Shown: positions 1 through 16,084 of the stretch, piece after piece
Position numbering within the stretch: the first letter of the stretch is position 1
Layout of the letters: the number at the start of each line of letters is the position of its first letter
DNA from: Paludibacter sp.
GTDB taxonomy: Bacteria > Bacteroidota > Bacteroidia > Bacteroidales > Paludibacteraceae
DNA: 34,086 nucleotides
Assembly (NCBI GenBank): GCA_010365115.1
Contig: JAAFGX010000043.1
Coordinates: forward strand, 15,693-49,778
Direction: 5' to 3'
Program-made: the position numbers and the translations under genes
Notes under the pieces: model-generated
Database searches by the model: none
Seen by the model: only the letters and a program-made list of their open reading frames with translations
What the model was told of the DNA's origin: nothing

Positions 1-342
1 TAAGTAGTTTATAGTAAGAAGTAAGTAGTTTATAGTAAGAAGTAAGTAGTTTATAGTAAGAAGTAAGTAGTTTATAGTAAGAAGTAAGAAGTAAGTAATA
101 AGAAATAAGAAGTAAGTGGTTTGTAATTAAAAGATATTGAAGAAAAAGTTAGTACTTTGTAGTAAAAAGATAGTAATTTGCAGTTAAAAGTTTGCAATTT
201 AAAGAGAGAATTAGAGCAGTAAGTATTGAATAACAAACAGACTTCAATATCCAGCTTCTAACTCCCAACTCCCAACTCCAAACTACTAACTACCAACTAC
301 ATACTTCCAACTTCCCTCAACCTTTCAAAAAATAATAAAGAT
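1..342. repeat. Intergenic repeat array upstream of batB
   Basis: Positions 1-84 are four perfect tandem copies of a 21-bp unit that begins TAAGTAGTTTATAG and ends TAAGAAG. Decayed versions continue to about 120, and 121-240 is AT-rich with scattered GTAGT/AGTAA words. From about 250 to 315 the sense changes to AC-rich words (AACTCCCAACTCC, AACTACTAACTACC), which are roughly the complement of the left-hand units. batB starts at 343. The array may extend past the left edge. I see no gene or clear TAnnTTTG promoter here. In related genomes batA normally lies just upstream of batB, so this is probably a gap inside the bat operon. Confidence 0.85.
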
Positions 343-1386
343 ATGTTTAGATTCGCACATCCCGAATATTTATTTTTACTTCTGTTAATCCCTGTGTTAA
401 TAGCAGTTTTTATCTATACGGGTATTCAGAAACGCCGTAATTTTAAACTATTTGGTAGTCAGGAATTGTTGGCTCAGTTAATGCCTAACGTTTCCTATAT
501 TCGCCCTCAAGTGAAATTTTATCTTCAACTTGCAGCTATTGTGCTAATTATAATTGTTTTGGCGCAACCACAATTTGGTACAAAAGTGGAAACCGTCAAA
601 CGTGAGGGAATTGAAGTAATGATTGCATTAGATGTTTCCAATTCAATGTTGGCACAAGACATACAGCCAAGCAGATTGGATAAATCAAAACAAGTTTTGT
701 CGAAATTAGTGGACGGGATGACCGATGATAAAGTTGGTTTGATTGTTTTTGCCGGCGATGCCTACACACAATTACCCATAACCGTGGATTATGTTTCTGC
801 CAAAATGTTTTTTTCATCCATTTCGCCACAATTAGTTCCTCGACAAGGAACTGCTATTGGAAGTGCTATTGATTTAGCTATTAAATCGTTTGGAACTAAA
901 GGAGAAGCGGGCAGAGCAATTATTGTAATTACTGATGGCGAGAATCACGAAGACGATGCCATTGGAGCTGCCAAATTAGCTGCCGAAAATAATATAGCAG
1001 TTCACGTGATTGGTATGGGAAAGCCCGATGGTGCTCCAATTCCCGTTCCCGGAACGATGAGTTTTTGGAAAGACAAAGAAGGAAATGTAGTGGTTTCGAA
1101 ATTGAACGAACAAATGTGTAAAGACATTGCTGCTGCCGGAAAAGGTATATATGTAAGAGCAGATAATACCAATGCAGCTTTTCGGGTAATCAATAATGAA
1201 CTTGATAAATTAGCAAAATCGGACTTAAAGTCAAGCATGTTTTCAGATTATAATGAACAATTCCAGTCATTTGCATTACTGGCTTTACTCATTTTGATTT
1301 TAGACTTTTTTGTGTTTGAACGCAAGAATAAACGTTTGAGCAGATTCAAAATTTTTGATTTGAAAGATAAAGTAATCAAAAATTGA
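343..1386 (+). CDS. batB: BatB: membrane-anchored von Willebrand factor A protein of the aerotolerance operon
   Basis: 347 aa. Predicted membrane segments lie at about 9-26 and 58-75 near the N-terminus and 309-325 at the C-terminus. Between them is a VWA domain (about 90-290) with an intact MIDAS metal site: D97-x-S99-x-S101 in DVSNS, T170, and D198 in TDGEN. This two-TM, VWA, one-TM layout is typical of BatA/BatB proteins of Bacteroidetes. The BatB call rests on its position directly ahead of batC, batD and batE. BatA/BatB are thought to form an inner-membrane complex with the TPR proteins, linked to oxygen or envelope stress tolerance; the biochemical role is not settled. batC follows 25 bp downstream. 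The start is ATG after AATAAAGAT; there is no strong Shine-Dalgarno, which is normal for the phylum. Confidence 0.93.
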   Translation: MFRFAHPEYLFLLLLIPVLIAVFIYTGIQKRRNFKLFGSQELLAQLMPNVSYIRPQVKFYLQLAAIVLIIIVLAQPQFGTKVETVKREGIEVMIALDVSNSMLAQDIQPSRLDKSKQVLSKLVDGMTDDKVGLIVFAGDAYTQLPITVDYVSAKMFFSSISPQLVPRQGTAIGSAIDLAIKSFGTKGEAGRAIIVITDGENHEDDAIGAAKLAAENNIAVHVIGMGKPDGAPIPVPGTMSFWKDKEGNVVVSKLNEQMCKDIAAAGKGIYVRADNTNAAFRVINNELDKLAKSDLKSSMFSDYNEQFQSFALLALLILILDFFVFERKNKRLSRFKIFDLKDKVIKN

Positions 1387-1411
1387 AATATTACAAATTA
1401 TAATTCTAGAA

Positions 1412-2089
1412 ATGAAAAAAACTGTTTATATATTAATATTGAGCGTACTGCCACTTTCAGCTTTTTCGCAAAAAGAAAGTGCCGATGTGCGTGCTGGAAA
1501 TACGTTGTATAAAGCGGAGAAATATACAGAAGCGGAAATTGCCTATAGAAAAGGACTTCTAAAAAATCCAAAATCATTTGAGGCGAATTATAATTTAGGA
1601 AATGCGTTGTTCCGACAAAAAAAATATGGCGATGCGTTGGAACAATATACTAATTCCATTGCACTTCAACCTACCGATAAAGAAAAACTGGCTTCAGCCT
1701 TTCACAATACCGGCAATGCCTTGCTTGCAGATAAAAAAATTGAGGAGAGTATAAATGCTTATAAAATGGCTTTAAAAAGCAATCCGAAAGATGATGAAAC
1801 TCGTTATAATCTGGCTTATGCTCAAATGATGTTGAAAAAACAACAACAAGATAAGGATAAAAACAAAGATAAAGATAAAGATAAGGATAAAGATAAGGAT
1901 CAGAAACAAGATCAGAAGAAAGATCAGAAACAGGATCAGAAAGAACAACCTCAACCTCAGCAACCTCAAATGTCGAAGCAAAATGCCCAACAGATATTAG
2001 ATGCATTAATGCAGGATGAAAAAAATACTCAGGAGAAAGCAAAAAAACAACCGGTACGAGGTTCCAGAAAAGCCGATAAAGATTGGTAG
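1412..2089 (+). CDS. batC: BatC: periplasmic TPR protein with charged low-complexity tail
   Basis: 225 aa. A signal peptide occupies about 1-19 (cleavage near SAFSQ). Tetratricopeptide repeats span about 24-143, with NLGNAL and NTGNAL motifs typical of TPR helices. Residues 144-187 are a K/D/Q tract built from near-perfect DK and DQK repeats, encoded by hexamer-like GATAAA/GATCAG runs that could expand or shrink in frame. A conserved-looking tail (about 188-225) follows, containing QQILDALMQDEK. The gene lies between batB and batD, as in other Bacteroidetes bat operons. It probably acts as a protein-protein scaffold in the Bat complex. The family call is firm; the partner is inferred from context. 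Confidence 0.9.
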   Translation: MKKTVYILILSVLPLSAFSQKESADVRAGNTLYKAEKYTEAEIAYRKGLLKNPKSFEANYNLGNALFRQKKYGDALEQYTNSIALQPTDKEKLASAFHNTGNALLADKKIEESINAYKMALKSNPKDDETRYNLAYAQMMLKKQQQDKDKNKDKDKDKDKDKDQKQDQKKDQKQDQKEQPQPQQPQMSKQNAQQILDALMQDEKNTQEKAKKQPVRGSRKADKDW

Positions 2090-2145
2090 ATAATGCATAA
2101 TATATAATGCATAATTGATAATTACAAAGAAATAAGAATTCACTC

Positions 2146-3972
2146 ATGAAACAAAGATTAATTCTAATATCGTTCCTGATACTTAGCACGTGGTTGGTTA
2201 AAGCCGATGAACCAATTCGTTTCACTGCATCAGCACCTTCCACCGTCATAATGAATGATCCATTTCAATTGGTCTATTCGGTAAATGCAACTGGAAGGGA
2301 TTTGCGCACTCCGGAGATAAATGGTTTCGATGTGCTGGCAGGTCCATTTGAGTCGCACAGTTCCAGTATGCAAATTATCAATGGAAAATCTTCCTCATCA
2401 GTTTCTGTATCCTATACTTACACGTTACAAGCCGAGAAAACAGGGACATTTACTATTCCATCGGCAAGTATTACTATTTCAGGTCAAAAATACACTTCTA
2501 ATGGTGTTTCAATTAAAGTGCTACCTGCTGATGCCACTGTTCCATCAAAATCGAAAGGTGGACAATCATCATCCGGATCTGATGCACAATCCATTTCCAG
2601 CGATAATGTATTTATCAGAACCACAGCTTCTAACTCCAATGTTTACGAGCAAGAAGCCATTTTGGTTACCTATAAATTATATACACTTGTGGATGTAGTA
2701 CAATGCGCAAATAAAAAAATGCCTGATTTCAATGGTTTTATGAAACAGGATATTGAACTAGCACAGAATAAACAATTTTCTTATGAAAATTCAAATGGTA
2801 AAAATTACGGAACAGTTGTGCTTTACCAGGTGTTGCTATATCCGCAGCGATCAGGTGTAATTGAAATAGAAAAAGCCAATTTCGAAGCTTCTATCCGCAT
2901 ACAAAACAGAACAGCGGTTAGAAGTATTTTCGACGATTTTTTTGATTCGTACACGAATGTGTCGAAAAATATTATTGCTCCGGGTGTAAAAATCAACGTT
3001 AATCCATTGCCTACCAATAAACCTGCTTCGTTTAATGGTACTGTGGGTCATTTTACACTCAATTCATCTATTACCACTCAAGAAGTTAAGGCTAATGATG
3101 CGGTTACCATTAAAGTGAACATTGCCGGAACCGGTAACATGAAATTGATTAAAAATCCGGAAATCAAATTCCCAGATGGATTTGAAGTCTACGACCCGAA
3201 AGTAAGTAATAATTTTAAAACCACTAATTCAGGGATATCAGGAACTAAAAGTATCGAATATCTTTTTATTCCTCGTCATTCAGGTGAATTTGAAATTCCT
3301 TCGGGAGAATTTGCTTACTTTGATATTCAGGACAAAAGGTATAAAACACTTAAAACGCCTAGTTACAAAATAAAAGTATTGAAAGGTGAAGGCGGTGAAA
3401 ATCCTACTGTTGTTGGAAATTATATCGATAAAGAAGATCTGAAACAATTGGGTAAAGATATCCGCTATATTCAGACAGATAATATTGAACTTTCAAAAGA
3501 AGAAGAACCACTTTTTGGGACACTGAATTTTTGGCTATTGTACCTTATTCCTTTACTTATTTCCTTTATTTTATTCGGTTTTTTTCGTAAGCATGTAAAA
3601 GAAAATGCTGATTTAAATCTGGTGAGAAATAAAAAAGCGAACAAGGTTGCTCGCAAAAGGTTGAAACTTGCGCAGAAATTTTTGAACGAAGGCAATAAAG
3701 ATAAGTTCTATGAAGAAGTTCTGAAAGCAGTTTGGGCATATCTTAGCGATAAGTTATCGATATCTGTTTCGGAACTTACCAAAGATAAAGTTGAATGGGA
3801 GCTTGGCTCACGAAATGTAGATATGGCAGTGATAACTGAATTTATAAAAATACTAAACACTTGCGAATTTGCTCGTTACGCACCAAATTCAGGTCAACAG
3901 GAGATGGGTAATTTATACAATGAAACGATTGAAGCAATAAGTCAATTGGAAGAATTAATCCGAAAATCATAA
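2146..3972 (+). CDS. batD: BatD: oxygen-tolerance membrane protein
   Basis: 608 aa. A signal peptide at about 1-20 precedes a long periplasmic region rich in beta-strand, immunoglobulin-like sequence. One membrane span lies at about 461-482 (FWLLYLIPLLISF), followed by a cytoplasmic alpha-helical C-terminus of about 125 residues rich in K and E. Length, topology and position match the BatD family (PF13584). It is thought to be part of the Bat envelope complex; no enzymatic motif is visible. The stop is 4 bp before batE, so the two are co-transcribed. The 56-bp gap to batC holds ATAATGCATAAT words starting at the batC stop. Confidence 0.92.
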   Translation: MKQRLILISFLILSTWLVKADEPIRFTASAPSTVIMNDPFQLVYSVNATGRDLRTPEINGFDVLAGPFESHSSSMQIINGKSSSSVSVSYTYTLQAEKTGTFTIPSASITISGQKYTSNGVSIKVLPADATVPSKSKGGQSSSGSDAQSISSDNVFIRTTASNSNVYEQEAILVTYKLYTLVDVVQCANKKMPDFNGFMKQDIELAQNKQFSYENSNGKNYGTVVLYQVLLYPQRSGVIEIEKANFEASIRIQNRTAVRSIFDDFFDSYTNVSKNIIAPGVKINVNPLPTNKPASFNGTVGHFTLNSSITTQEVKANDAVTIKVNIAGTGNMKLIKNPEIKFPDGFEVYDPKVSNNFKTTNSGISGTKSIEYLFIPRHSGEFEIPSGEFAYFDIQDKRYKTLKTPSYKIKVLKGEGGENPTVVGNYIDKEDLKQLGKDIRYIQTDNIELSKEEEPLFGTLNFWLLYLIPLLISFILFGFFRKHVKENADLNLVRNKKANKVARKRLKLAQKFLNEGNKDKFYEEVLKAVWAYLSDKLSISVSELTKDKVEWELGSRNVDMAVITEFIKILNTCEFARYAPNSGQQEMGNLYNETIEAISQLEELIRKS

Positions 3973-3976
3973 TCAG

Positions 3977-4729
3977 ATGAAACGAATTATTATAAATATT
4001 ACTGTAATTGTGTTTTTTTGTTTGTCGGGGTTAGCTCAGCCAACTTCAGTGAAACAAGCCAACGAATTGTATATTAGTGGCAATTATCAGGATGCTGCAA
4101 AGCAATACGAAACAATTATAGCAAAGGAAGGTATTGCCCCCGAATTATATTATAATCTTGGCAATGCATATTATAAAGCAAATGAAATTGGTCGTTCAAT
4201 TTTGAATTACGAACGTGCTTTAAGACTTTCACCAACATATGATGATGCACGATTTAACCTTGAGATGGTTCACCTTAAAGTGGTTGATAACATTGTACAA
4301 GTTCCAACTTTTTTTGTGGGTCGATGGATTGAAAATCTTATAAAACTACTGACAACCAATCAGTGGATTGTAATCAGTGTGATGGGTTTTGTTTTAAGTT
4401 TATCACTGTTATTCTTGTTTGTTTTCGGCTCAACCAGACACATCCGCAAAATTTCTTTTTATGTCGGTTCGGTATTATTTGGGATTAGTTTTATTACCCT
4501 TATTTTCGCAGGAGTACGGAAAGACCAACTGTTGAATCATAATGATGCCATTATTATGTCAGGGGTAGTTACTGTTAAAAGCTCTCCAGACAAGAGCGGA
4601 ACTGATTTGTTTCAGTTGCATGAAGGAACAAAAGTGAATATTAAAAGCACCTTGGGCAACTGGTCGGAAATTACCCTGGGGAACGGAAATATCGGGTGGA
4701 TTGAAAACCCGAATATTGAGAGAATTTAA
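3977..4729 (+). CDS. batE: BatE: TPR and SH3-like membrane protein
   Basis: 250 aa. A signal peptide or N-terminal helix spans about 1-20, and two TPR units lie at about 24-55 and 57-90 (YYNLGNAYYKANE is a classic TPR helix A). Two membrane helices follow at about 129-150 and 159-180. The C-terminal region, about 191-244 (VTVKSSPDKSGTDLFQLHEGTKV), is a bacterial SH3-like domain. This is the standard BatE architecture and closes the bat operon. The protein probably links the Bat complex to periplasmic or peptidoglycan partners; that role is inferred from domains. The start codon is 4 bp after batD. Confidence 0.92.
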   Translation: MKRIIINITVIVFFCLSGLAQPTSVKQANELYISGNYQDAAKQYETIIAKEGIAPELYYNLGNAYYKANEIGRSILNYERALRLSPTYDDARFNLEMVHLKVVDNIVQVPTFFVGRWIENLIKLLTTNQWIVISVMGFVLSLSLLFLFVFGSTRHIRKISFYVGSVLFGISFITLIFAGVRKDQLLNHNDAIIMSGVVTVKSSPDKSGTDLFQLHEGTKVNIKSTLGNWSEITLGNGNIGWIENPNIERI

Positions 4730-4818
4730 TAAAAAGTTTGAGAGTTTGAAAGTTTGAAAAGTTTGAAAGTTTTCAAACTCTCAAACGTCAAACCAAAAAA
4801 ATATAACCTCTTAAAATA
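4730..4818 (+). repeat. Complementary GTTTGA/TCAAAC hairpin between batE and PAP2 gene
   Basis: Right after the batE stop come GTTTGAAA-type units, followed before the PAP2 start by their complement. The perfect arms are 4736-4751 and 4771-4786 (16 bp; the left arm reads GTTTGAGAGTTTGAAA) with a 19-nt loop. No T-tract follows the right arm, so it is not a canonical rho-independent terminator on the + strand. It has the same polarity as the TAGTTTATAGT/ACTATAAACTA arrays elsewhere in the window. Confidence 0.85.
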
Positions 4819-5493
4819 ATGAATCTTATCGACACCTTGAATCTTTGGGATACTCATCTTTTTTTGTTTTTAAACGGACTCAACTCTACATTTTTCGATG
4901 GTTTCATGTTTGCCGTAAGTGCTAAACTTACATGGGTTCCACTTTATTTGGCAGTATTATTTGTAATTATTAAAGAGTGGAAAAAAGAATCCATCTGGAT
5001 AGTGATTTCGCTGGTTTTTTGTGTTGTAATTGCTGATCAAATTTCGTCGGGATTAATTAAGGAAATGGTACAACGTCCCCGACCTTCGCATGCAGAAAAT
5101 TTACAGGGTATGGTTCATTTAGTAAATGGATATGTGGGGGGGAAATATGGTTTTGTTTCGTCGCATGCTGCCAATGCATTTGGTTTTGCGCTGCTTACAT
5201 CTTTGCTTTTTAGAAGAAATTACTATACTTACGTTATTTTTGGTTGGGCTAGTATTACCGCCTACTCGCGCATTTATTTAGGCGTGCATTATCCGTTGGA
5301 TATTTTAGGAGGTATTTTAGTAGGAATTTTAGCCGCACTTACCTGCTTTTTTGCCATTAAAAAACTACGTCCTTCACTTTTGCAAATGCAAGATAATGAT
5401 TCCAATAATGAAAATCTGAATGTTACAATCCCTTTGATTACAATTGGGTTGAGTTTTGTTGGAATTGTTATTTATAGTCTTTTCTTTTTTTAA
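4819..5493 (+). CDS. PAP2-family membrane phosphatase
   Basis: 224 aa integral membrane protein with the three acid-phosphatase signatures. Motif 1 is K81-x6-R88-P89 (KEMVQRPRP). Motif 2 is SSH at 114-116, where S-G-H is usual and H116 is the proposed catalytic base. Motif 3 is S150-R151-x5-H157-x3-D161 (SRIYLGVHYPLD), with H157 as nucleophile. Around six hydrophobic segments are present. Family members dephosphorylate lipid phosphates such as undecaprenyl pyrophosphate, phosphatidylglycerophosphate or lipid A; the substrate cannot be read from the sequence. The gene lies 89 bp after batE in the same direction and overlaps the convergent Wzi gene by 4 bp at its stop. Confidence 0.9.
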   Translation: MNLIDTLNLWDTHLFLFLNGLNSTFFDGFMFAVSAKLTWVPLYLAVLFVIIKEWKKESIWIVISLVFCVVIADQISSGLIKEMVQRPRPSHAENLQGMVHLVNGYVGGKYGFVSSHAANAFGFALLTSLLFRRNYYTYVIFGWASITAYSRIYLGVHYPLDILGGILVGILAALTCFFAIKKLRPSLLQMQDNDSNNENLNVTIPLITIGLSFVGIVIYSLFFF

Positions 5494-6899
5494 TAACGAA
5501 ACAAATCGCCGGTTTTGCGGATAGATAGCAGGCAACCCACAGAATTTCCGTATAACTTACCAAAGTCTGCACCAATTGAACAACCAACATTGATATTAGC
5601 CAGTTTTGGGAACTGTTTGTTTACTTCCATCAATAGCGATGTTGAAGGTTTCATTTCAGGATAAGGGTAATTGTAACTGCCATAATTTTTACTGAATGAA
5701 GTCAGTATTTTGTAATTATAACCAGAAATATCACCTTCAGCTCCAACATGATGAACCCTAACACGGTTATTTTCAACACTTACATTTCCATTGGTATTGA
5801 AAACAGGTGAAGTTATAAATGGTGTGCCAATAGTGTGCGAATAATAGGTCCAACCCGATTGATAAATGCCATTTGTAAAATAACTGTCGGCACCGCCATA
5901 AATTATGCCATCTTTATCATGATAAGGACCCGACTGGTCGGTTGTATTTAATATCTCAAACAGAATTCCCTTGATGTATGTAAAGTTTTTATTTCGAATG
6001 GATATTCCCCAAAGCCCATCCGGTCTGTTCATCGTTTTATTGATAAGCCTGATTGGACCATCTTCCGAAACATTTTGCCAGTATCCACTGATTTTGAAAT
6101 CTGAAATGTCAATGTCTAATCGTGTGCTTTGCGAAATAATATGATTTCCCAATGCATTTAACTGGTCATTCATTGTGGCATCAGCACCACCGGATTTCCC
6201 AAAAAATATTGATTTGTAGGCATTTAAACTGATAGGTTGCTGACCAATTCTGGGAACATTGCCACCCCATTGTGCCACGTGATCCAAACCATATTGAAAA
6301 TGAACCGGAAATTTTCCTCCCAAACGTAAATAAGCGTATTTATGATGAAGCAATTGATTTTGTGTGAAGGTATTATCGGTATACCAACCATGTGATAATG
6401 CTCCTTTTATTTCTAACAGACCAAAAGTGAAAGGAATAGTTGTGAAATGTTCAATGCCAATGGTAATTTTTGGCATTGGGCGGGTATTCTGGGAAAATAA
6501 CAAACCGCCACTCGATAGTGTAGAATCCTGATTGCCAAGATATTCTTCGCGGGAACCAATAGCAAGATCGAAGACGAAGAGTCGTGCTTTTGCATACAAT
6601 TCATGAAAATACAAATTTGTAACCGTAGGATCAGTTTTTAGCAATACATCGGCTTTGAAACCATAATCGAATATTCGTTTCGAATCACCAAATTCTTTGT
6701 TGAACCCCAGTATAAAATCTGCACTATTTGTTGCGATTGATGTTTTTCCATATTGCCGGCTGTGCAACCAAAATGGAGAATACGCACCGGTTGAAGTCAA
6801 TCCCATAAGAGTAAAATCATACTTTATAGTATCGTTTTGAGCTTTGATTTGCGATGAAACAAATAATAGAAATATGATTATCCGAAAAATTTTATACAT
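5490..6899 (-). CDS. Wzi-like capsule assembly outer-membrane beta-barrel protein
   Basis: 469 aa from the chosen ATG at 6899, which gives a clean signal peptide (MYKIFRIIIFLLFVSSQIKA). An in-frame upstream start at 6932 would add 11 residues in front of the signal peptide and is less likely. The mature protein has alternating aromatic/polar strands typical of an outer-membrane barrel and resembles the Bacteroidetes capsule assembly protein Wzi family (PF14052), including the early SPFWLHSRQYG segment. E. coli Wzi is a surface lectin that anchors capsule; in this phylum the role is inferred. It lies 64 bp after a Kelch lipoprotein gene in the same direction, so the two are probably co-transcribed. 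Confidence 0.82.
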   Translation of the reverse strand: MYKIFRIIIFLLFVSSQIKAQNDTIKYDFTLMGLTSTGAYSPFWLHSRQYGKTSIATNSADFILGFNKEFGDSKRIFDYGFKADVLLKTDPTVTNLYFHELYAKARLFVFDLAIGSREEYLGNQDSTLSSGGLLFSQNTRPMPKITIGIEHFTTIPFTFGLLEIKGALSHGWYTDNTFTQNQLLHHKYAYLRLGGKFPVHFQYGLDHVAQWGGNVPRIGQQPISLNAYKSIFFGKSGGADATMNDQLNALGNHIISQSTRLDIDISDFKISGYWQNVSEDGPIRLINKTMNRPDGLWGISIRNKNFTYIKGILFEILNTTDQSGPYHDKDGIIYGGADSYFTNGIYQSGWTYYSHTIGTPFITSPVFNTNGNVSVENNRVRVHHVGAEGDISGYNYKILTSFSKNYGSYNYPYPEMKPSTSLLMEVNKQFPKLANINVGCSIGADFGKLYGNSVGCLLSIRKTGDLFRY

Positions 6900-6939
6900 A
6901 CAACTTCGGCAATTAATTAGTAATAAATTCAAGAACTTA

Positions 6940-6962
6940 CCCCCCTCAGGGGTTGTGGGTCA
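6940..6962. repeat. Short G/C-rich palindrome between Kelch and Wzi genes
   Basis: The + strand reads ACCCCCCTCAGGGGTTGTGGG. CCCCT/AGGGG arms at 6942-6946 and 6948-6952 surround a single C. This is an abrupt G/C island in AT-rich DNA, similar in composition to the CCCCCTAAATCCCCC elements at 11976 and 32461, and may be a degraded relative. Confidence 0.45.
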
Positions 6963-6963
6963 A

Positions 6964-7950
6964 TCAGGGTTCAAAACTCCAAAAATCATTCAACACTTGC
7001 GTGTCATTTTCTCCAAATCCAATATATCCTTTTCCGTTAATGCTAAATCCAATTGCATTTTCACGAGCATCAGTTGGGATACTTCCTCTTTCGTACCAAA
7101 CATCGCGAGTGGCATCGTATTCCTTTATGTCCGATTTTACATGACCGCCGGTCATATTTCCACCAAATTGCCTGCCGGTAGAAACAAAATATCGATTGTT
7201 GATAGTAAAAGAAACACCGTTTTCACGACCGTTATCGGGCATTGCTTTTCGCTTCGCCCACGTATCAGTTTCTGGGAAATACTCCCACCAATCGTTTTCA
7301 TTCAATGTCCGATAGCCGGTTCCATAAAATATGTGCTCGTCACTTGCGCACAAAATACCTCCGGCACGACCCATTCCCGGAAAGTCTTTTAATCGGATCC
7401 ATGCATCGTTCGATATGCTATATTTCCAAAATTCAGTTACAAATCCCCAACCATTGAATCCGCCTCCAACATATATATTATTTTTATAAACAAAACTTAC
7501 ACAGGCATCTGTTGCGGTACTTGGAAAACTGTCTTTTTTTGTCCATGTGTCGATTTCAGTATTATACATCCAAAAATCTCTCAGATAAGCTTTTATATCT
7601 GAATAAACTCCATATCGAGGGTCGAATCCTAGTCCTACAAACGCTTTTCCATCCAAAACTGCCGACATGGCATTTACACGACCATCTCCAGGAAAGGAAC
7701 TTTTCTCAAGCCACGAATTGTCAGTAGGATTGTATTCCCAACAATCTTTTAATGCTTTTCTGTTTGCATCTCTGCCCAATGCCACATACCCTTTTCCGTT
7801 TACTGCAAATGCCACTGCCGACGAACGACCGTTTCCGGCCATAGGTGCAAAACTTTTAAACTGGATTGGTTCATAAGGCGATTCTACAGCATTGTTACAA
7901 GCTGATAGATGAAATATCAAAAGAAAAAGAACGAAATATTTTATTCTCAT
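6964..7950 (-). CDS. Kelch-repeat lipoprotein (beta-propeller)
   Basis: 328 aa. The lipoprotein signal peptide ends in LSAC, with the lipidated Cys at 18. The rest is six Kelch units of about 40-50 residues, each with a glycine-rich strand (GKGYVALG, GKAFVGLG, NIYVGGG, HIFYGTG, RYFVSTG, GKGYIGFG), then an aromatic D/E-x-W-x-Y block and a conserved W before the turn (for example NSWLEKSSFP). Six units fit one closed beta-propeller. No catalytic residues of galactose oxidase are evident, so a binding or scaffold role at the envelope is more likely. It precedes the Wzi-like gene by 64 bp on the same strand, which suggests a shared surface-polysaccharide function; this link is inference. Confidence 0.85.
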   Translation of the reverse strand: MRIKYFVLFLLIFHLSACNNAVESPYEPIQFKSFAPMAGNGRSSAVAFAVNGKGYVALGRDANRKALKDCWEYNPTDNSWLEKSSFPGDGRVNAMSAVLDGKAFVGLGFDPRYGVYSDIKAYLRDFWMYNTEIDTWTKKDSFPSTATDACVSFVYKNNIYVGGGFNGWGFVTEFWKYSISNDAWIRLKDFPGMGRAGGILCASDEHIFYGTGYRTLNENDWWEYFPETDTWAKRKAMPDNGRENGVSFTINNRYFVSTGRQFGGNMTGGHVKSDIKEYDATRDVWYERGSIPTDARENAIGFSINGKGYIGFGENDTQVLNDFWSFEP

Positions 7951-8031
7951 ATTTATTTACAGATTCCAATGAAAATGAATTTCAAAGTGTTTTTAAATAA
8001 CCTTTTTAGTCTAACCCATATAAACAATTAT

Positions 8032-8065
8032 ACATCATCACATCATCACATCATCACATTCTCAC
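8032..8065. repeat. ACATCATC tandem repeat at the hisF stop
   Basis: Three perfect 8-bp ACATCATC units (8032-8055) and a degenerate fourth (ACATTCTC). The hisF stop codon (complement of 8054-8056) falls inside the repeat, which reads GATGATGT units going downstream of hisF. Similar CACATCATCACATC words occur at about 10513-10527 upstream of mtaB. Confidence 0.8.
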
Positions 8066-8809
8066 TTCTACTCCTTTTTTTTTCAAAAAACTTTTAAGTT
8101 CAGGTATCCCAATTTCTTTGTAATGGAAAATACTTGCAGCAAGTGCAGCATCCGCTTTTCCCGCATCAAAAACATCCACAAAATGCTCCATGGTTCCTGC
8201 ACCGCCACTGGCAATAACCGGCACATTTACAGCTTCCGACACGGCTCGGGTTATATCCAATGCAAAACCATTTTTCGTGCCATCGTTGTTCATCGAAGTC
8301 AGAAGAATTTCACCTGCTCCCAGTGCCACAGCCTGTTTCGCCCATTCTACTGTTTTAATATCTGTTGGAATACGTCCGCCGTTCAAATACACAAACCATT
8401 CGCCATCGATGCATTTTGTGTCAATTGCTAACACTACGCACTGGCTCCCAAACTGCGAAGCCAAATCGGCAATAAGCTGAGGGTTTCGTACAGCGGAGGT
8501 GTTGACCGAAATTTTATCGGCACCACAAGCCAGCAACACCGAAACATCTTCCACGCTCGAAATGCCACCGCCCACTGTAAAGGGGATGTTAATATGTTTG
8601 GCAATTCGTGTTACTAATTCCGATAAGGTTTTGCGCTTTTCGTTGGTAGCTGTAATGTCCAGGAAAACCAATTCGTCGGCACCCATTTGAGCGTACAATG
8701 CCCCAAGTTCTACCGGATCACCTACATCGGTAATATTTTCAAAATTAATGCCTTTTACTGTTTGTCCGTTTTTTATATCCAGACAAGGAATGATTCGTTT
8801 TGCTAACAC
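8054..8809 (-). CDS. hisF: Imidazole glycerol phosphate synthase, cyclase subunit HisF
   Basis: 251 aa, full length for the family. It is a (beta/alpha)8 barrel that takes ammonia from HisH and converts PRFAR to imidazole glycerol phosphate and AICAR, linking histidine and purine synthesis. The two catalytic aspartates are present: D11 (PCLDIKNG) and D130 (LAIDTKC). Phosphate-binding loops GGGIS (80-84) and ASGGAG are intact. No other his gene is in the window; hisH and hisA would be expected upstream in most genomes, but here mtaB lies upstream behind a 303-bp repeat region. The stop codon sits inside an ATCATCAC repeat. Confidence 0.96.
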
Positions 8810-9112
8810 TTTTAATTAGTTTATAGTGAGAAGTATATAGTTTGTAGTATGTAGTTTATAGTGGGTAGTTTATAGTTTATAGTTTATAGTGGGTAGTTTA
8901 TAGTTTATAGTGAGTAGTTTATAGTTTATAGTGAGTAGTTTATAGTGAGAAGTATGTAGTTTATAGTTTATAGTTTATAGTGTGAAGTTTATAGTTTATG
9001 GTGTGTTAATATTTCATTTCATTGCCTATAAACTATTGTTTATCAACTATCAGCTATAAACTATCAACTATCTGCTATCATCTATTGCCTATAGACTATC
9101 AACTATCAACTA
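8810..9112 (-). repeat. Large complementary repeat array between mtaB and hisF
   Basis: No gene is seen. On the + strand 8818-9005 holds about 14 copies of AGTTTATAG joined by TGGGT, TGAGT or TGAGAAGT. From about 9020 to 9120 the words are the complement type (CTATAAACTA, CTATCAACTATCAACTAT). Read along transcription (- strand), ATAGTTGATAG units start at the mtaB stop codon and ACTATAAACTACC units end next to the hisF start, so the transcript could form a long imperfect hairpin. The mtaB stop codon TGA lies inside the first ATAGTTGATAG unit. Confidence 0.88.
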
Positions 9113-10426
9113 TCAACTATTTATTTCCAACGCCGTTTTTTCTTCTTTCCAATCTCCCAAAGTAATAGTTTGAATAGTATTTACCAACGATTTGTCGAAA
9201 GGACGTTCTGCTTTTACATAATTATTGCTGAAACCGACCATGAAATCCCCATTATGCCTGCTTTCCCATAGAACTTGAGTGGTTTTGCCCATTTGACTTT
9301 CGTAAAACATCTTGGTTTTTTTATCCGACAATATGTGTAGAATTTCACTCCGTCGTTTTCGTTCTGTTGTTGAAACTTTATGCTCAATTTCCAGCATTTT
9401 GGTTCCCGCACGTTCCGAATAGCTGAAAACATGTAACTGCGAAACATCCAATGACTCTATAAAACCAATGGCATGTTCAAAAAGTTCGTCTGTTTCGCCC
9501 CGCACGCCCACAATTACATCAACACCAATAAATGCATCAGGAATAAACTTTTTTATGGTGGATACTTTTTGAGCAAAAAGTTCGGTTGTATAACGCCTTT
9601 TCATCAGTCGCAAAACTTCATTAGATCCCGATTGCAATGGAATATGAAAATGCGGCATAAAATGGTTGCTTTTTGATACAAATTCGATTAACTCATCTGT
9701 TAGCAAGTTGGGTTCAATTGAAGATATACGAAAGCGAACTTCATCGGGCAAAGCATCCAGTACTTTCACTAAATCAAAAAAGTTTTCATCGGTACTTTTG
9801 CCAAAATCGCCTGTATTTACTCCAGATAGTACAATTTCTTTTGCTCCTTCGGCAATGGCTTGTTTCGCCATATCTACCGTTTCGGCAATGGTTGCATTCC
9901 TACTCCTACCACGAGCAAACGGAATGGTGCAATACGTGCAGAAATAATCGCAACCATCCTGCACTTTGAGGAAAAAACGGGTACGGTCATCGCGCGAACA
10001 AGAAGGTTTGAAATCTTTTACTTTTGATATTTCGGTTCGGTGAACTTCTGTGTTTTTATTAAGTTCAGTGTTGTTTAGATAATCTAAAATACTGAATTTT
10101 TCATTGGCACCCAATACCAGGTCCACCCCTTCCATTGAAGCAATTTCGTCGGGTTTAAGTTGAGCATAACAGCCTGTCACCACCATGATGGCGTTAGGAT
10201 GCTGACGGTTCAGCCTGTTGATTGCCTGACGGCATTTGTGATCGGCTGTATCGGTTACCGAACAGGTGTTGATGATACAAACATCGGCTTCTTCACCTGC
10301 ACGGGCTTTCACAAATCCTTCGTCGCTGAGTTGTTTTCCAATAGCAGAAGTTTCTGCAAAATTAAGTTTGCAGCCCAAAGTGTGATAGGCTACTTTTTTA
10401 TTATTAAATAGGGAATCGTCAATCAT
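9113..10426 (-). CDS. mtaB: tRNA t6A37 methylthiotransferase MtaB
   Basis: 437 aa from ATG at 10426. It is a radical-SAM enzyme that adds a methylthio group to N6-threonylcarbamoyladenosine at position 37 of ANN-decoding tRNAs. The N-terminal methylthiotransferase domain holds cluster cysteines C19, C55 and C86 (TLGCKLN, NTCSVTD, TGCYAQ). The radical SAM motif C159-x3-C163-x2-C166 lies in DGCDYFCTYC, and a TRAM-like tail occupies roughly the last 65 residues. A longer reading frame to 10501 exists, but a perfect TACCTTTG -7 box at 10457-10450 (- strand) lies between the two starts, so transcription should begin near 10444 and only the shorter form fits. The C-terminus runs into the repeat array. 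Confidence 0.94.
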   Translation of the reverse strand: MIDDSLFNNKKVAYHTLGCKLNFAETSAIGKQLSDEGFVKARAGEEADVCIINTCSVTDTADHKCRQAINRLNRQHPNAIMVVTGCYAQLKPDEIASMEGVDLVLGANEKFSILDYLNNTELNKNTEVHRTEISKVKDFKPSCSRDDRTRFFLKVQDGCDYFCTYCTIPFARGRSRNATIAETVDMAKQAIAEGAKEIVLSGVNTGDFGKSTDENFFDLVKVLDALPDEVRFRISSIEPNLLTDELIEFVSKSNHFMPHFHIPLQSGSNEVLRLMKRRYTTELFAQKVSTIKKFIPDAFIGVDVIVGVRGETDELFEHAIGFIESLDVSQLHVFSYSERAGTKMLEIEHKVSTTERKRRSEILHILSDKKTKMFYESQMGKTTQVLWESRHNGDFMVGFSNNYVKAERPFDKSLVNTIQTITLGDWKEEKTALEINS

Positions 10427-10449
10427 TATAATTGGAAAATTTACAGGCA

Positions 10450-10457
10450 CAAAGGTA
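10450..10457 (-). promoter_or_regulatory. -7 box of mtaB promoter
   Basis: TACCTTTG on the - strand matches the Bacteroidetes TAnnTTTG consensus exactly, 24 nt upstream of the chosen mtaB ATG. No clear -33 TTTG is seen at the usual spacing. Confidence 0.6.
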
Positions 10458-10595
10458 GTGAAAATTGTCGAATGACTTATAGGTGGTAATTCATAATTCA
10501 AAATAGATCCTCACATCATCACATCCATCTGGTCGTCCATCTTCACAATTACTTATTTTTTCTTTATTGTGAATTTCATATCCTGGTTTTTTCAC

Positions 10596-10624
10596 TTGCA
10601 TTATAAAAAAAATGCTTACTTTTG
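10596..10624 (+). promoter_or_regulatory. gmd promoter
   Basis: TTG at 10596-10598 and TACTTTTG at 10617-10624 are 18 nt apart, close to the Bacteroidetes TTTG-N19-TAnnTTTG pattern. The start of transcription should be near 10630, leaving a leader of about 177 nt before gmd, unusually long for this window. Confidence 0.65.
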
Positions 10625-10806
10625 CCTAACAAAGATATATGGATCGAAATATTTGATGGTTAAAGTAAATTTTGTTTTGAAATTCAATCTTTAAAACAAT
10701 AACAGGCGAATAAACGTTAGTTTACAATATTAATGTTATTGAGTACTTCAATTATTTAAGGTTCTTTATAAATTAAAAAAACAACTCAAAACTAAACTTA
10801 TACAAG

Positions 10807-11958
10807 ATGACCAATAAAGTTGCTTTGATTACGGGTATTACCGGACAGGATGGAGCTTATTTAGCCGAATTATTACTTAAAAAAGGATATGTAGTACATG
10901 GTCTGAAACGTCGATCGTCGATGTTTAATACAGAAAGAATAGATCACTTGTATCAGGACCCGCATGTTGATAACCGTAACCTCGTATTGCATTATGGCGA
11001 TATGACGGACTCGATGAACCTTACCCGCATTATACAAGAAACCCAACCGGATGAAATATATAACTTGGCAGCAATGAGCCATGTAAAGGTGAGTTTTGAT
11101 ACTCCCGAATATACTGCCAACGCCGATGGTATTGGAACACTTCGCTTGCTGGAGGCAGTTCGTTTGTTGGGTCTGACCGAGAAAACCCGCATTTATCAGG
11201 CTTCTACATCTGAGTTGTACGGATTGGTACAGGAGGTTCCTCAAAAGGAATCAACTCCGTTCTATCCCCGCTCGCCATATGCAGTTGCCAAAATGTATGC
11301 TTACTGGATTACAGTAAATTATCGTGAAGCATATAATATCCACGCCAGCAATGGTATTTTGTTTAATCACGAATCTCCTTTACGCGGCGAGACTTTCGTA
11401 ACCCGAAAAATTACCCGTGCAGCAGCCCGTATTGCTATGGGAATGCAGGATAAAATGTTCCTTGGAAATTTGTCTTCAAAACGCGACTGGGGTCATGCCA
11501 AAGATTATGTACGTGCTATGTATCTTATCCTTCAACAAGATAAACCTGATGATTATGTTATTGCAACCGGTGTTACCACCGAAGTGAGGGAATTTGTACG
11601 CATGGCTTTTGCCGAAATCGGATTGAAAATCGATTTCAGAGGCGAAGGAATAGATGAGAAAGGATATATTGACTCGGTAGATGAAGCCCTTTTTGTAAAA
11701 GAAGTAGGAGCGGAGTTTCTTGAAGCTATTAAAGCTGTGAAAATTCCATTAGTGGAAGTGGATAAAAACTATTTCCGTCCTACCGAAGTGGATTTACTTA
11801 TTGGTGATGCCACCAAATCGCACACGGTGTTGGGCTGGATTCCCGAATATGACCTGAAAGGGTTGGTGGAAGACATGATGCTCTCCGACGTAAAACTCAT
11901 GAAAAAAGAAACATACCTTAAAGAAGGTGGTTTCAGGGTGATGAATTATTTTGAATAG
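10807..11958 (+). CDS. gmd: GDP-mannose 4,6-dehydratase
   Basis: 383 aa short-chain dehydrogenase/reductase of the extended class, cytosolic. It converts GDP-D-mannose to GDP-4-keto-6-deoxymannose, the first step to GDP-L-fucose. The NADP-binding glycine motif is at 10-16 (GITGQDG). Catalytic residues are T134 and E136 in STSELYG and the Y158-x3-K162 pair in SPYAVAK. Substrate-binding NHESPLRGE and RDWGHAKDY segments are present. Length is normal. It is followed by fcl on the same strand after a 250-bp gap filled with repeat sequence, and its own promoter precedes it. Confidence 0.97.
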
Positions 11959-12208
11959 ACATTATAGTCTGTAGCAGCCCCCTAAATCCCCCGATAGGGG
12001 ACTTTAAGACTTATACTACATAAATTTAGTAGAAAATGTAATCTAACAAAATATTAGACGAAGCTAATTTAATTCCCCGTAATTTATCCCGATGCATCGG
12101 GAGGGGTTAGGGGTAGTATTTGTTAGTTAGTAATTAATAGTTTGTAGTAAATAAAGTTGATACAAAGGTAAATATCAAGATCAAAAGAAGTAAATAGCAC
12201 GAAGTAAA
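11959..12208 (+). repeat. Composite G/C-rich repeat element between gmd and fcl
   Basis: No gene. AGCCCCCTAAATCCCCC lies at 11976-11992, followed by GATAGGGGACTTTAA. On the right is AATTCCCCGTAATTTATCCC, the perfect 14-bp palindrome CCCGATGCATCGGG at 12088-12101, and GAGGGGTTAGGGG at about 12101-12113, which is roughly the complement of the left motif. The block 11976-12113 is therefore bounded by inverted C-rich/G-rich ends around an AT-rich core. From 12116 to 12150, GTTAGTTAGTAATTAATAG-type words follow. There is a - strand TACCTTTG at 12163-12170. Confidence 0.75.
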
Positions 12209-13261
12209 ATGAATAAAGACGCAAAAATATACGTAGCCGGACATAACGGCATGGTGGGATCGGCCATTAAACGGAACCTCGAAAAAAAAGGATTTACAAA
12301 CTTCGTTACCCGATCGTTTGAAGAACTTGATTTATTGAACGAAAATGATGTGGCTGATTTTTTTAGAGCCGAAAAACCAGAATATGTAGTACTGGCTGCC
12401 GCCAAAGTAGGTGGTATTATTGCTAACAATACCTACCGGGCACAGTTTATTTACGAGAACCTGATGATACAAAACCATGTTATCCATCAGAGTTATTTAA
12501 ATGGCGTAAAAAAGCTTTTGTTTTTAGGTTCATCCTGCATTTATCCCCGTATGGCGGAACAACCCATGCACGAGGAAGCCTTACTCACAGGTCTCCTTGA
12601 AAGTACCAATGAACCATATGCCATCGCCAAAATTGCCGGAATAAAAATGTGCGAAGCCTATCATGCACAGTACGGTTGTAACTTTATTTCCATTATGCCT
12701 ACCAATTTGTACGGACAAAACGATAACTACGATTTGGAAAAATCGCATGTGTTGCCGGCACTTATCCGAAAAATGAAGTTGGGAAAATTCTTGATGGAGA
12801 AAAATATGGATGCTCTCCGAGCCGATTTGAGTAAACTACCAATTGAAGGAGTAGATGGGTCATTCGATATGGACGTAATAACAAATGTGCTTCGAAAATA
12901 CGGAATTTCATCGGAAGATGGAAAAGTGTCCATTACACTGTGGGGAACAGGTTCGCCCATGCGCGAATTTCTGCATGTAGACGATATGGCCGATGCCAGC
13001 GTGTATCTGCTTCAGAATTACAATGCACCCGATACCACTCCTTCACATGTAAATATCGGCTGTGGTGAAGACTTGTCCATCAAAGATTTGTCAGAAATTG
13101 TCCGCAAAACGGTTGATTACCAAGGCGAAATTGTGTGGGATACCACTAAGCCCGATGGAACTCCCCGCAAACTCCTCGATGTGTCCAAGCTAAACAACCT
13201 GGGCTGGATACCAAATATTACCATTGAAGAAGGAATCAGAAGAGTGGTGGGGAATTATTAG
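12209..13261 (+). CDS. fcl: GDP-L-fucose synthase
   Basis: 350 aa. An NADPH-dependent epimerase-reductase that completes GDP-L-fucose synthesis from the Gmd product. The cofactor motif is G11-x2-G14-x2-G17 (GHNGMVG). Catalytic residues align with E. coli Fcl shifted by one: S108, C110, Y137, K141 and H180 (GSSCIYP, YAIAK, KSHV). An insertion of about 45 residues at roughly 190-235 (MEKNMDALRADLSKLPIEG) makes it longer than the E. coli enzyme; I recall this insertion from Bacteroidales homologues. GDP-fucose would feed capsule, O-antigen or glycoprotein synthesis. The TAG stop codon is the first part of a TTAGTTAATAG repeat array. Confidence 0.96.
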   Translation: MNKDAKIYVAGHNGMVGSAIKRNLEKKGFTNFVTRSFEELDLLNENDVADFFRAEKPEYVVLAAAKVGGIIANNTYRAQFIYENLMIQNHVIHQSYLNGVKKLLFLGSSCIYPRMAEQPMHEEALLTGLLESTNEPYAIAKIAGIKMCEAYHAQYGCNFISIMPTNLYGQNDNYDLEKSHVLPALIRKMKLGKFLMEKNMDALRADLSKLPIEGVDGSFDMDVITNVLRKYGISSEDGKVSITLWGTGSPMREFLHVDDMADASVYLLQNYNAPDTTPSHVNIGCGEDLSIKDLSEIVRKTVDYQGEIVWDTTKPDGTPRKLLDVSKLNNLGWIPNITIEEGIRRVVGNY

Positions 13262-13625
13262 TTAATAGTTAATAGTTAATAGTTAATAGTTAATAGTTGT
13301 TAGTTAATAGTTATTAGTTAATAGTTTGTAGACAGTAGTTATTGAAATATCGTCAATAGTCATTAGAGGAAATCTTATTTCTTTAAACCACATAACCAAT
13401 GCCATTAAATATTAAATATTAACTATAAACTACCCACTATAAACTAAAAGCTTCTCACTATAAACTACCCACTATAAACTACCCACTATAAACTATAAAC
13501 TATAAACTACTCACTATAAACTATAAACTACCTACTATAAACTACCCACTATAAACTACCTACTATAAACTACCTACTATAAACTACCCACTATAAACTA
13601 TAAACTACCCACTATAAACTAAAAA
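13259..13625 (+). repeat. Large complementary repeat array between fcl and the ABC permease
   Basis: No gene in this stretch. From the fcl stop to about 13345 run GTTAATAGTTAATAG units; 13346-13420 is a unique AT-rich spacer; 13421-13620 holds about 16 copies of ACTATAAACT joined by ACCC, ACCT or ACTC. The permease ATG is at 13626, six bases after the last unit. The stretch 13422-13445 is an exact 24-nt inverted match to 8853-8876 in the mtaB-hisF array. The array could pair internally as an imperfect hairpin. Confidence 0.9.
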
Positions 13626-14462
13626 ATGGAATTTACCACCGTCATTAAGCCAAAAAATAAACTTTTCGATGTCGATTTTAAAGAAATATGGCATTACCGC
13701 GATTTATTTTCAATGTTCGTAAAGCGCGACATTATCACACAATACAAACAAACCATTTTGGGACCGGCCTGGTTTTTTATACAACCAGCCATTACCACTT
13801 TAATGTATATGGTAGTTTTTGGTGGTATTGCAAAAATCCCAACCGATGGTCTTCCGCAACCCATGTTTTATTTAGCCGGCATCGTCTGCTGGCAGTATTT
13901 TGCCGATTGCCTGAATAAAACCTCCAGCACCTTTACCGCCAATCAGGGTATTTTTGGTAAAGTGTATTTCCCGCGGCTTATAGTTCCTCTTTCTACTGTT
14001 GCCTCCAATCTGGTGCGCATGGGCATACAGTTTCTAATGTTTATTGCGGTATATGTCTATTTCGTATTGTCAGGAGTAGCAGTTGCTCCCAATGCCTATA
14101 TTTTATTACTGCCGGTTTTAGTTATTATGCTTGGTGGATTAGCATTGGGTTTTGGTATTATCATTTCTTCTATGACCACAAAATACCGCGATCTTACGCT
14201 CTTGTTCACTTTTGTGGTTCAACTCTGGATGTATGCCACTCCCATTATTTACCCGCTCAGCACCATGTCACCTAAGAAGCAGATGATTATGGCACTTAAT
14301 CCCGTAACTTCTATAGTGGAAACGTTCAAATATGGCACTATGGGTGTGGGAACTTTCAGTTGGATGCAGTTGGGATATAGTTTCGGTTTTATGCTCGTAT
14401 TGCTGGGCATTGGAATCGTGGTATTTAATAAAGTACAGAGGAGTTTTATGGACACGGTTTAA
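13626..14462 (+). CDS. Polysaccharide ABC exporter permease (Wzm/RfbD-like)
   Basis: 278 aa, ABC-2 type membrane domain with about six hydrophobic helices between 50 and 270. The N-terminal amphipathic stretch LFSMFVKRDIITQYKQTILGPAWFFIQP is characteristic of Wzm/KpsM/TagG permeases, which export O-antigen, capsule or teichoic glycans across the inner membrane. These proteins need a separate ATPase (Wzt/KpsT/TagH), normally encoded next door; here the next gene is an unrelated small acidic protein and no ABC ATPase with Walker motifs is present apart from RecF. The context of gmd and fcl upstream suggests a fucose-containing glycan, by inference. The start ATG is directly behind the repeat array. 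Confidence 0.92.
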   Translation: MEFTTVIKPKNKLFDVDFKEIWHYRDLFSMFVKRDIITQYKQTILGPAWFFIQPAITTLMYMVVFGGIAKIPTDGLPQPMFYLAGIVCWQYFADCLNKTSSTFTANQGIFGKVYFPRLIVPLSTVASNLVRMGIQFLMFIAVYVYFVLSGVAVAPNAYILLLPVLVIMLGGLALGFGIIISSMTTKYRDLTLLFTFVVQLWMYATPIIYPLSTMSPKKQMIMALNPVTSIVETFKYGTMGVGTFSWMQLGYSFGFMLVLLGIGIVVFNKVQRSFMDTV

Positions 14463-15220: not shown

Positions 15221-16084
15221 ATGTTTTATTTATTTTACGGATTTGTTTGGCTTATTACCTGGTTGCCATTGCGGGTGCTCTATTTTTTATCGGATATTTG
15301 TTATCTGATAATTTATTATGTGGCTGGTTATCGCAAGAAAGTGGTGCGCACAAATCTTGAAAAATCATTCCCGCAAAAGTCAACAGCCGAACTCAGGAAA
15401 ATAGAACGAAAATTCTATCGGTTTTTTTGCGATGTATTTGTAGAAACGGCTTACCAAATGCACATTTCAAAAGCAGAAATGCTCAAACGAATGAATTTCT
15501 GCAACGTAGATGTTTTACTGGAGCAATACGCAAAAGGGAAAAGCTGTTTGCTGATGACTGCTCATTATGGCAACTGGGAATGGGCATCTGCCTTGTCGTT
15601 ATCATTGCCCTCGGATAAACCGCTTTACGGGATTTATAAACGGTTGAACGACAAAAATTTTGACAACTTTATTTGTGAACTTCGAACTAAATCAACCGGT
15701 AAAAATATTGAAAAGAATGATCTTCTTCGCAAGATGGTTCGATTGAAAAATAATGCTGAATTGGCTATGTTTGGTATGATATCCGATCAAAGCCCTGACT
15801 GGAAGAGTCTAAATTACTGGACCACTTTTTTAAATCAGGATACTCCGGTGGTAACTGGTACAGAAGTGTTGGCGCGTAAATTTGATTATCCGGTGTATTA
15901 TGCCGAAATAACCCGAGTAAAAAGAGGCTATTATAAGTGTGAGTTTATTCCTGTATCCATGGAGCCTTCTCAAACATCAGAGTTTGAAATCACGGAAAAA
16001 TACATCCAATTATTGCAAAAAACAATTGAATTAAAACCTGAATTCTGGCTCTGGTCTCACAGGAGATGGAAACATGTTCGATAA
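15221..16084 (+). CDS. LpxL/HtrB-family lysophospholipid acyltransferase
   Basis: 287 aa. An N-terminal membrane helix (about 5-35) precedes a cytoplasmic-face acyltransferase domain. The H-x4-E catalytic motif is H115-YGNW-E120 (TAHYGNWEW), and the C-terminal WLWSHRRWKH block is the conserved end of this family. Members transfer an acyl chain to lipid A precursors or to other lipids (for example ornithine or amino-acid lipids in this phylum); the exact acceptor cannot be told. It is followed 38 bp later by a GT2 glycosyltransferase on the same strand, so the two are probably one operon for an envelope lipid or glycan. Confidence 0.9.
   Translation: MFYLFYGFVWLITWLPLRVLYFLSDICYLIIYYVAGYRKKVVRTNLEKSFPQKSTAELRKIERKFYRFFCDVFVETAYQMHISKAEMLKRMNFCNVDVLLEQYAKGKSCLLMTAHYGNWEWASALSLSLPSDKPLYGIYKRLNDKNFDNFICELRTKSTGKNIEKNDLLRKMVRLKNNAELAMFGMISDQSPDWKSLNYWTTFLNQDTPVVTGTEVLARKFDYPVYYAEITRVKRGYYKCEFIPVSMEPSQTSEFEITEKYIQLLQKTIELKPEFWLWSHRRWKHVR

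Follow-up and report, generated by a model that had tools for sequence, protein, structure and literature searches.

The STRR sequences of cyanobacteria are heptanucleotide tandem repeats, and tandem repeats of the same unit length occupy three intergenic gaps (1–342, 8810–9112, and 13262–13625) in a 34,086-bp stretch of a Paludibacter sp. genome, here called the window (bases 15693–49778 of contig C151 in a 4.79-Mb assembly of 207 contigs, G000). All three gaps have G-bearing heptamers almost free of C (TAGTNNN) at one end and C-bearing heptamers almost free of G at the other (the G-sense and C-sense arms). At stop and start edges alike, an array close to a gene usually abuts it with the 5′ end of its G-bearing, C-poor strand, which extends from there into the gap. 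The position of the gene end, and not transcription, sets this polarity. The counts given here come from eight genomes (the window and 40 stretches of the source genome, together 0.81 Mb, with stretches from seven relatives bringing the total to 1.95 Mb) and from GTDB loci selected by the TAGTTTA unit; every count that includes GTDB loci holds among the matches listed.

The closest described systems are the GGGAATC and GGGGA(C/T)T heptamers of Xanthomonas and Nostoc (three organisms), which form convergent pairs and follow an edge rule: the G strand lies on the coding strand near stop codons and on the non-coding strand near start codons, and stop codons can be overlapped (Rehm et al. 2015, PMC4692102). 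That paper reports 70 and 75 convergent inverted pairs in two Xanthomonas, with 83% of repeats kept in the same context between two Xanthomonas, and proposes quadruplexes for these G-tract-bearing units while leaving their function undecided. The arrays studied here share the tandem 7-base intergenic units (136 of 182 period-7 arrays lie in called gaps), the convergent inverted pairs (33:2, GTDB included), and the placement of the G strand at stops and starts (83:12, GTDB included). They differ in that the window units lack G-tracts, many unit sequences as well as periods 8 and 9 obey the rule, and species of one genus differ in their unit at a compared gap.

A second described kind, the TAACTGA direct repeats of Beggiatoaceae, cyanobacteria, and five Bacteroidetes, mostly lies “forward” to the start codon, and in its largest class the repeat stops 1 nt short of it; in that study it is considered a possible translation regulator site, with one inverted case in the genome concerned (MacGregor 2015, PMC4679880). 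These are also intergenic heptamers, and TAACTGA read outward from the gene is TCAGTTA. In contrast to that single unit, the window arrays have different heptamers as their consensus units, a comparison made with no genome-wide TAACTGA search. REP/BIME elements are likewise intergenic, inverted, and present in many copies, but they have palindromic units tied to a transposase, whereas the present units are short, tandem, and of changing sequence. A first-pass annotation of the window knew of no named family with such a rule; the edge rule had in fact been published for G-rich heptamers (PMC4692102). No extension of it to units without G-tracts, to periods 8 or 9, or to tRNA edges was found in the PMC open literature, outside which most subscription journals lie. 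The arrays look like an already published kind of repeat in a wider form, with a polarity rule that appears more general.

Arrays in the three gaps of the window

Arrays in the window were called with Tandem Repeats Finder, and the sequences of the three gaps were also read directly. The arms, one further array, and the flanking genes are as follows.

1..200, + strand: G-sense heptamer array (TAAGTAGTTTATAGTAAGAAG units, then degenerate), from sequence reading and Tandem Repeats Finder
249..315, − strand: C-sense arm of AACTCCC, AACTACC, and AACTACT, its G strand on − and directed away from the gene starting at 343
8817..9003, + strand: G-sense arm (TAGTTTATAGTGAG units), separated by 7 bp from the start codon of hisF and directed into the gap 8810–9112
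9026..9120, − strand: C-sense arm of CTATCAA units (G strand TTGATAG on −), overlapping the mtaB stop codon (9113–9115) and last codons
13255..13332, + strand: G-sense arm of TTAATAG units, beginning at the stop codon TAG (13259–13261) of a GDP-fucose synthase-like gene
13413..13625, − strand: C-sense arm (ACTATAAACTACCC units), reaching the ATG at 13626 that starts an ABC-permease-like gene
4730..4786, + strand: octamer array AAAGTTTG that immediately follows a stop codon (last base 4729) and precedes its own complement, the edge rule with period 8
8054..8809, − strand: hisF, flanking gene (NCBIfam TIGR00735, 361 bits, above cut-off)
9113..10501, − strand: mtaB, flanking gene (NCBIfam TIGR01579, 403 bits, above cut-off)
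upstream of gap 13262–13625: GDP-fucose synthase-like gene (NF047922, 459 bits, below the cut-off of 500)
starting at 13626: ABC-permease-like gene (NF050109, 67 bits, below the cut-off of 380)

The proposed layout of TAG-sense units followed by complementary AC-sense units was borne out in all three gaps by the sequence, the array calls, and shuffles. TAG and CTA number 10 and 0 in the left half of gap 1–342 and 1 and 5 in its right half; the corresponding counts are 19 and 0, then 5 and 12, in gap 8810–9112, and 13 and 3, then 0 and 28, in gap 13262–13625. The best 42-base stretch, matched to itself at an offset of 7 bases, scores 34, 34, and 38 in the three gaps, with maxima of 26, 26, and 28 among 500 dinucleotide-preserving shuffles per gap, none of which reaches the observed score. 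The main units (TAGTTTA, TTAATAG, and TTGATAG) contain G only singly and so lack G-tracts of the quadruplex type.

Contact with the flanking genes is as in the first-pass annotation, which had the TAG-sense units start at or near the upstream stop and the AC-sense units end just before the downstream start. G-sense units begin at the TAG stop in gap 13262–13625, and in gap 1–342 they directly follow the TAA stop of an upstream 327-aa open reading frame (ORF; stretch L060, 14487–15470), the 21-bp unit TAAGTAGTTTATAGTAAGAAG, equal to three heptamers, being present from window base 1. The C-sense units run up to the ATG at 13626, and those of gap 1–342 extend to about 315, 27 bp before the ATG at 343. 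A run of 124 N (L060 15569–15692, contig C151) interrupts the array just before window base 1, with the TAAGTAGTTTATAGTAAGAAG unit on both flanks, and is possibly an assembly gap within a longer array. Elsewhere in the window, a perfect ACATCATC octamer array of 3.5 copies (8032–8059) lies across and just past the hisF end, and was scored as back-anchored (touching the gene by its G-strand 5′ end) at the stop. Weak, below-cut-off family matches in a profile search of the window were CHU_0125 and T9SS_PorE, which suggest a Bacteroidota genome.

Polarity at gene edges

The TAG...CTA layout reads alike on both strands and therefore cannot report gene direction. The + strand pairs and the − strand mtaB–hisF pair, offered by the first-pass annotation as separate support, are thus one fact and not two, the layout being its own reverse complement; what is informative is only the convergent or divergent order of the arms and the pointing of gaps with a single sense. 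Single-sense arrays in co-directional gaps have the G strand with transcription in 73 cases and against it in 58 (GTDB included), and a transcription-dependent polarity, as proposed, is rejected. Two-armed gaps between convergent genes (three) and between divergent genes (seven) are also convergent (GTDB included), one gap between divergent genes being divergent at a looser threshold, and arrays that span an entire co-directional gap are of either sense (18:15, GTDB included).

The gene edge, by contrast with transcription, predicts the sense of an array. Among near-edge single arrays of the eight genomes (near-edge and mid-gap being divided at 30 bp from a gene), 55 touch the gene by the G-strand 5′ end and 3 by the other end; periods 7, 8, and 9 give 29:3, 15:0, and 11:0, respectively (counted with best-period filtering, 58 entries in 54 gaps). 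With GTDB included, 83 near-edge, non-spanning period-7 arrays touch the gene by the G-strand 5′ end and 12 by the 3′ end, and the median distance to the gene is 2 bp behind and 99 bp ahead. Gaps without even a weak opposite arm give 47:5 at stop edges and 30:7 at start edges, together 77:12 (GTDB included). Both edges of a gap may carry an array, hence the convergent TAG...CTA layout: 33 two-armed gaps are convergent and 2 divergent (15:0 in the eight genomes and 18:2 in GTDB), or 38 and 3 at the looser threshold with GTDB included, and all five two-armed gaps of period 9 are convergent. Of 92 scored tracts at the GTDB TAGTTTA loci, 75 are directed away from the nearer gene, including 48 of the 50 within 30 bp of one edge only and 14 of 17 others.

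The rule is independent of unit sequence and of unit length (periods 7, 8, and 9). Polarity is the same for units with isolated or paired G (TAGTTTA, AGTTACA, AAGAATC, and TTGGTTGA). A motif-blind comparison found the outward sense shared by end-proximal arrays of like units in 176 of 198 pairs (at most 0.72 in 1000 random flips), and by all arrays in 392 of 549 (at most 0.61 in 1000 flips). A first pass over the source genome without filters gave 33 outward, 10 inward, and 2 neutral arrays (n = 45); period 7 accounts for 53 arrays there, and periods 5, 6, and 8–11 for 5–29.

These counts rest on stretches chosen by place and not by orientation; many source-genome contigs were chosen for TAGTTTA matches, the relatives were chosen for many arrays or long contigs, and two of the two-armed gaps counted are gaps of the original finding. 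Genes were called with our own ORF caller, which missed a window ORF (15221–16084) and put the hisF start at 8686, so the gap edge was set by hand to 8809 for the edge, two-armed, and period 7–9 counts. Arrays beyond the outermost called gene were excluded (39 of 182 period-7 arrays in the eight genomes; 43 GTDB matches, plus 1 genic), as were gaps containing N from the edge, stop-codon, and period counts, and arrays with a difference between G and C below 3 from the edge and period counts; the last filter drops AT-only AATTATG-like arrays because their sense is undefined. Gaps with both senses were left out of single-array counts. Of the 182 period-7 arrays, 7 are genic. In the sampled stretches and GTDB loci, arm order and gene-end contact are far from random, which ordinary microsatellites would not produce; the dependence on transcription proposed by the first-pass annotation is not supported.

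Contact with the gene is close. Back-anchored arrays lie at 0 bp in 30 and within 3 bp in 34 of 53 cases at stop edges, and at 0 bp in 14 and within 3 bp in 21 of 30 cases at start edges (GTDB included). Where an array starts within 3 nt of a stop, its repeat lattice enters the ORF by a median of 2–3 nt, stop codon included. Where gaps are free of arrays, G and C are balanced at stop edges (117:115, 38:41, and 88:92), with a mild outward excess of G over C at start edges (166:111, 58:30, and 123:81); the stop-edge polarity therefore belongs to the arrays, and a general base skew at gene ends is ruled out as its cause at stops. For arrays that have G outward and begin no more than 3 nt from a stop, that stop is TAA in 14, TGA in 7, and TAG in 6 of 27 cases in the eight genomes (TAG being 0.19 of all stops), so that arrays mostly do not supply the stop codon; GTDB arrays may do so (TAG 18, TAA 16, and TGA 9 of 43; TAG 0.23 overall). 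C-sense arrays flush with a stop, gap-filling ones included, number 6 in the eight genomes and 7 in GTDB.

RNA genes extend the comparison. ARAGORN predicted 31 tRNA genes in the sampled sequence, with six outward and one inward array contacts among the matches listed (eight contacts are listed, one being the far side of an array already counted, and all lie in TAGTTTA-chosen loci). Pattern searches, which yield motif-defined tRNA candidates, gave 4 outward and 0 inward places for tRNA-like 3′ edges across 393 genomes of the order; for the 47 genus genomes the figures are 2 and 0. In one genome (G024), two tRNA-like patterns flank a convergent pair. The outward 3′ edges argue against a cause acting through translation only.

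Turnover and spread in the genus

Units at one gap differ between species. A hisF gene was identified in 43 of the 47 genus genomes, and 30 loci were compared, the window's among them. In 26 of the 30, mtaB is immediately upstream of hisF, across a gap of 27–306 bp (81 bp or less in 15 of the 26). The arms in this gap are TAGTNNN and TTGATAG in the source genome; by eye, other species have GTGTTCC, GCGAATA, GTCTAAA, or GTGTTTN heptamers or TTGGTTAA octamers, and further loci have no clear array. Three mtaB–hisF gaps (L112, L113, and L103) carry GC-rich palindrome-like repeats (CCCCCTAAA...GGGG) in place of heptamers.

Repeated TAGTNNN (a pattern with three TAGT) occurs 0 to 376 times per genome within the genus. 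Contig C54 of the source genome has 20 matches of an 11-base pattern in 270 bp (6243–6512), among the longest TAGTTTA arrays listed. In sampled contigs of two genomes (G058 and G059; L171–L190), 31 of the 55 arrays with period 7 are found past the last called gene at the end of a short contig; such arrays may therefore break assemblies and be undercounted in drafts.

Origin of the arrays

A rule indifferent to transcription, unit sequence, and unit length points to the making of DNA and not to a role in RNA. We tentatively favour, at somewhat less than an even chance, recurrent and sequence-flexible arrays (mostly of period 7, also 8 and 9) arising by repeated strand-polar DNA synthesis in gaps and held in check at gene ends by selection. 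A strand-polar event in the DNA would recur inside gaps; in the simplest form, end processing, a 3′-ended strand leaving the flanking gene would be lengthened by copying a short unit again and again before being rejoined. A round could consume only such gap DNA as remains, and purifying selection would halt the rounds at the gene, leaving arrays in gene contact that would be mainly by-products and not regulatory parts. Repeated extension bounded by selection is proposed because it covers edge polarity, gene contact, independence of unit and length, and turnover. A harsher version, in which polar growth kills the gene ahead, is contradicted by the gap-filling arrays in both senses.

Several results weigh against repeated extension. 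Polarity is absent among arrays farther than 30 bp from both edges (23:15, not significant, GTDB included) and likewise among GTDB tracts more than 30 bp from the nearer edge (13 of 25 outward), and mid-gap arrays therefore fit an explanation by selection at least as well. The near half of the arm is the more regular in 10 arms of the source genome and genus and the far half in 22, with 5 ties (44, 40, and 1 among GTDB arms); there being no age gradient, the direction of growth is unsupported. Start edges are uncertain since they come from our ORF caller, back-anchored arrays in co-directional gaps of the eight genomes number 28 at stops and 16 at starts, and tRNA-like 5′ edges are mixed, with 4 outward and 3 inward places in the pattern searches (one place in both lists). 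Candidate enzymes give no help: Ku, considered for end joining, was found in 1 of 47 genus genomes, and the 20 of 47 that carry a reverse transcriptase have no more arrays than the others (p = 0.77), so that a reverse transcriptase link is rejected. The single Ku homologue (L191; PF02735, E = 3.4e-47) belongs to a genome, G009, that is among the array-rich ones.

The main rival, possible but doubtful, is that slippage creates arrays in both orientations and selection removes the wrong sense near gene ends; in detail, and with the same doubt, Bacteroidota start codons would need a G-poor leader before them, and stops would impose some other need after them. Bacteroidota are devoid of Shine-Dalgarno motifs and sensitive to the structure of the leader (PMC6847099 and PMC3155529), which, with the mild skew of array-less start edges and the unpolarised mid-gap arrays, accords with such selection. 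Stop edges, however, are polarised at least as strongly as start edges and have no skew when array-less, the small numbers at tRNA-like 3′ edges are polarised too, and the occurrence of gap-filling arrays in both senses means that a G strand running to the start codon is tolerated.

The long RNA hairpin suggested by the first-pass annotation would make the convergent arms a selected RNA element that processes, stabilises, or terminates mRNA between co-directional genes. Each window gap does fold more stably than its shuffles (z = −2.3, −6.1, and −4.4; 100 shuffles each), and the cognate arms of 38 convergent gaps, pooled with GTDB, pair better than swapped arms (mean −0.61 versus −0.47; 0 of 2000 permutations), a result weakened because the pool mixes genomes with different units; within single genomes, arms of one gap pair no better than arms of other gaps (16 gaps, P = 0.31, low power). 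Most Xanthomonas repeats were found to be transcribed (PMC4692102), yet single arrays show no preference for transcription here, arms without a partner follow the edge rule, the arms of one gap are often unrelated, and units turn over between species; we consider a selected hairpin improbable. Fold-back copying, by which one arm would be an inverted copy of the other through template switching at a palindrome, is less probable still: matching arms occur in some gaps (L056, L092, L131, and L130), but it requires such matching and the arms of a gap often differ (they are unrelated in L050, L098, and L148), it would permit both orders of the arms and the convergent order prevails, and single arms follow the edge rule. 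Neither a selected hairpin nor fold-back copying accounts for single arms. Retention of G-rich heptamers for quadruplex formation is very improbable as a cause, since the location rule that quadruplex-forming GGGAATC and GGGGAYT follow in Xanthomonas and Nostoc (PMC4692102) holds equally for TAGTTTA, AGTTACA, AAGAATC, and TTGGTTGA, units without tracts of three G, and for other periods, so that quadruplexes are not needed.

More speculatively, and with a probability we would put as low though not negligible, repeated extension could be a general, transcription-independent mutational process in many Bacteroidota, in which 7–9-base repeats form by extension of a C-poor 3′ strand off gene edges, telomere-like but without telomerase, the rewriting of intergenic DNA goes on continually as far as the last functional base, and the Xanthomonas and Nostoc repeats are one product. 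If the edge rule holds, intergenic repeats would be a record of the rewriting of gap DNA, the quadruplex explanation of earlier cases would be unneeded, and a simple test would apply to any genome, namely which end of an array touches the gene.

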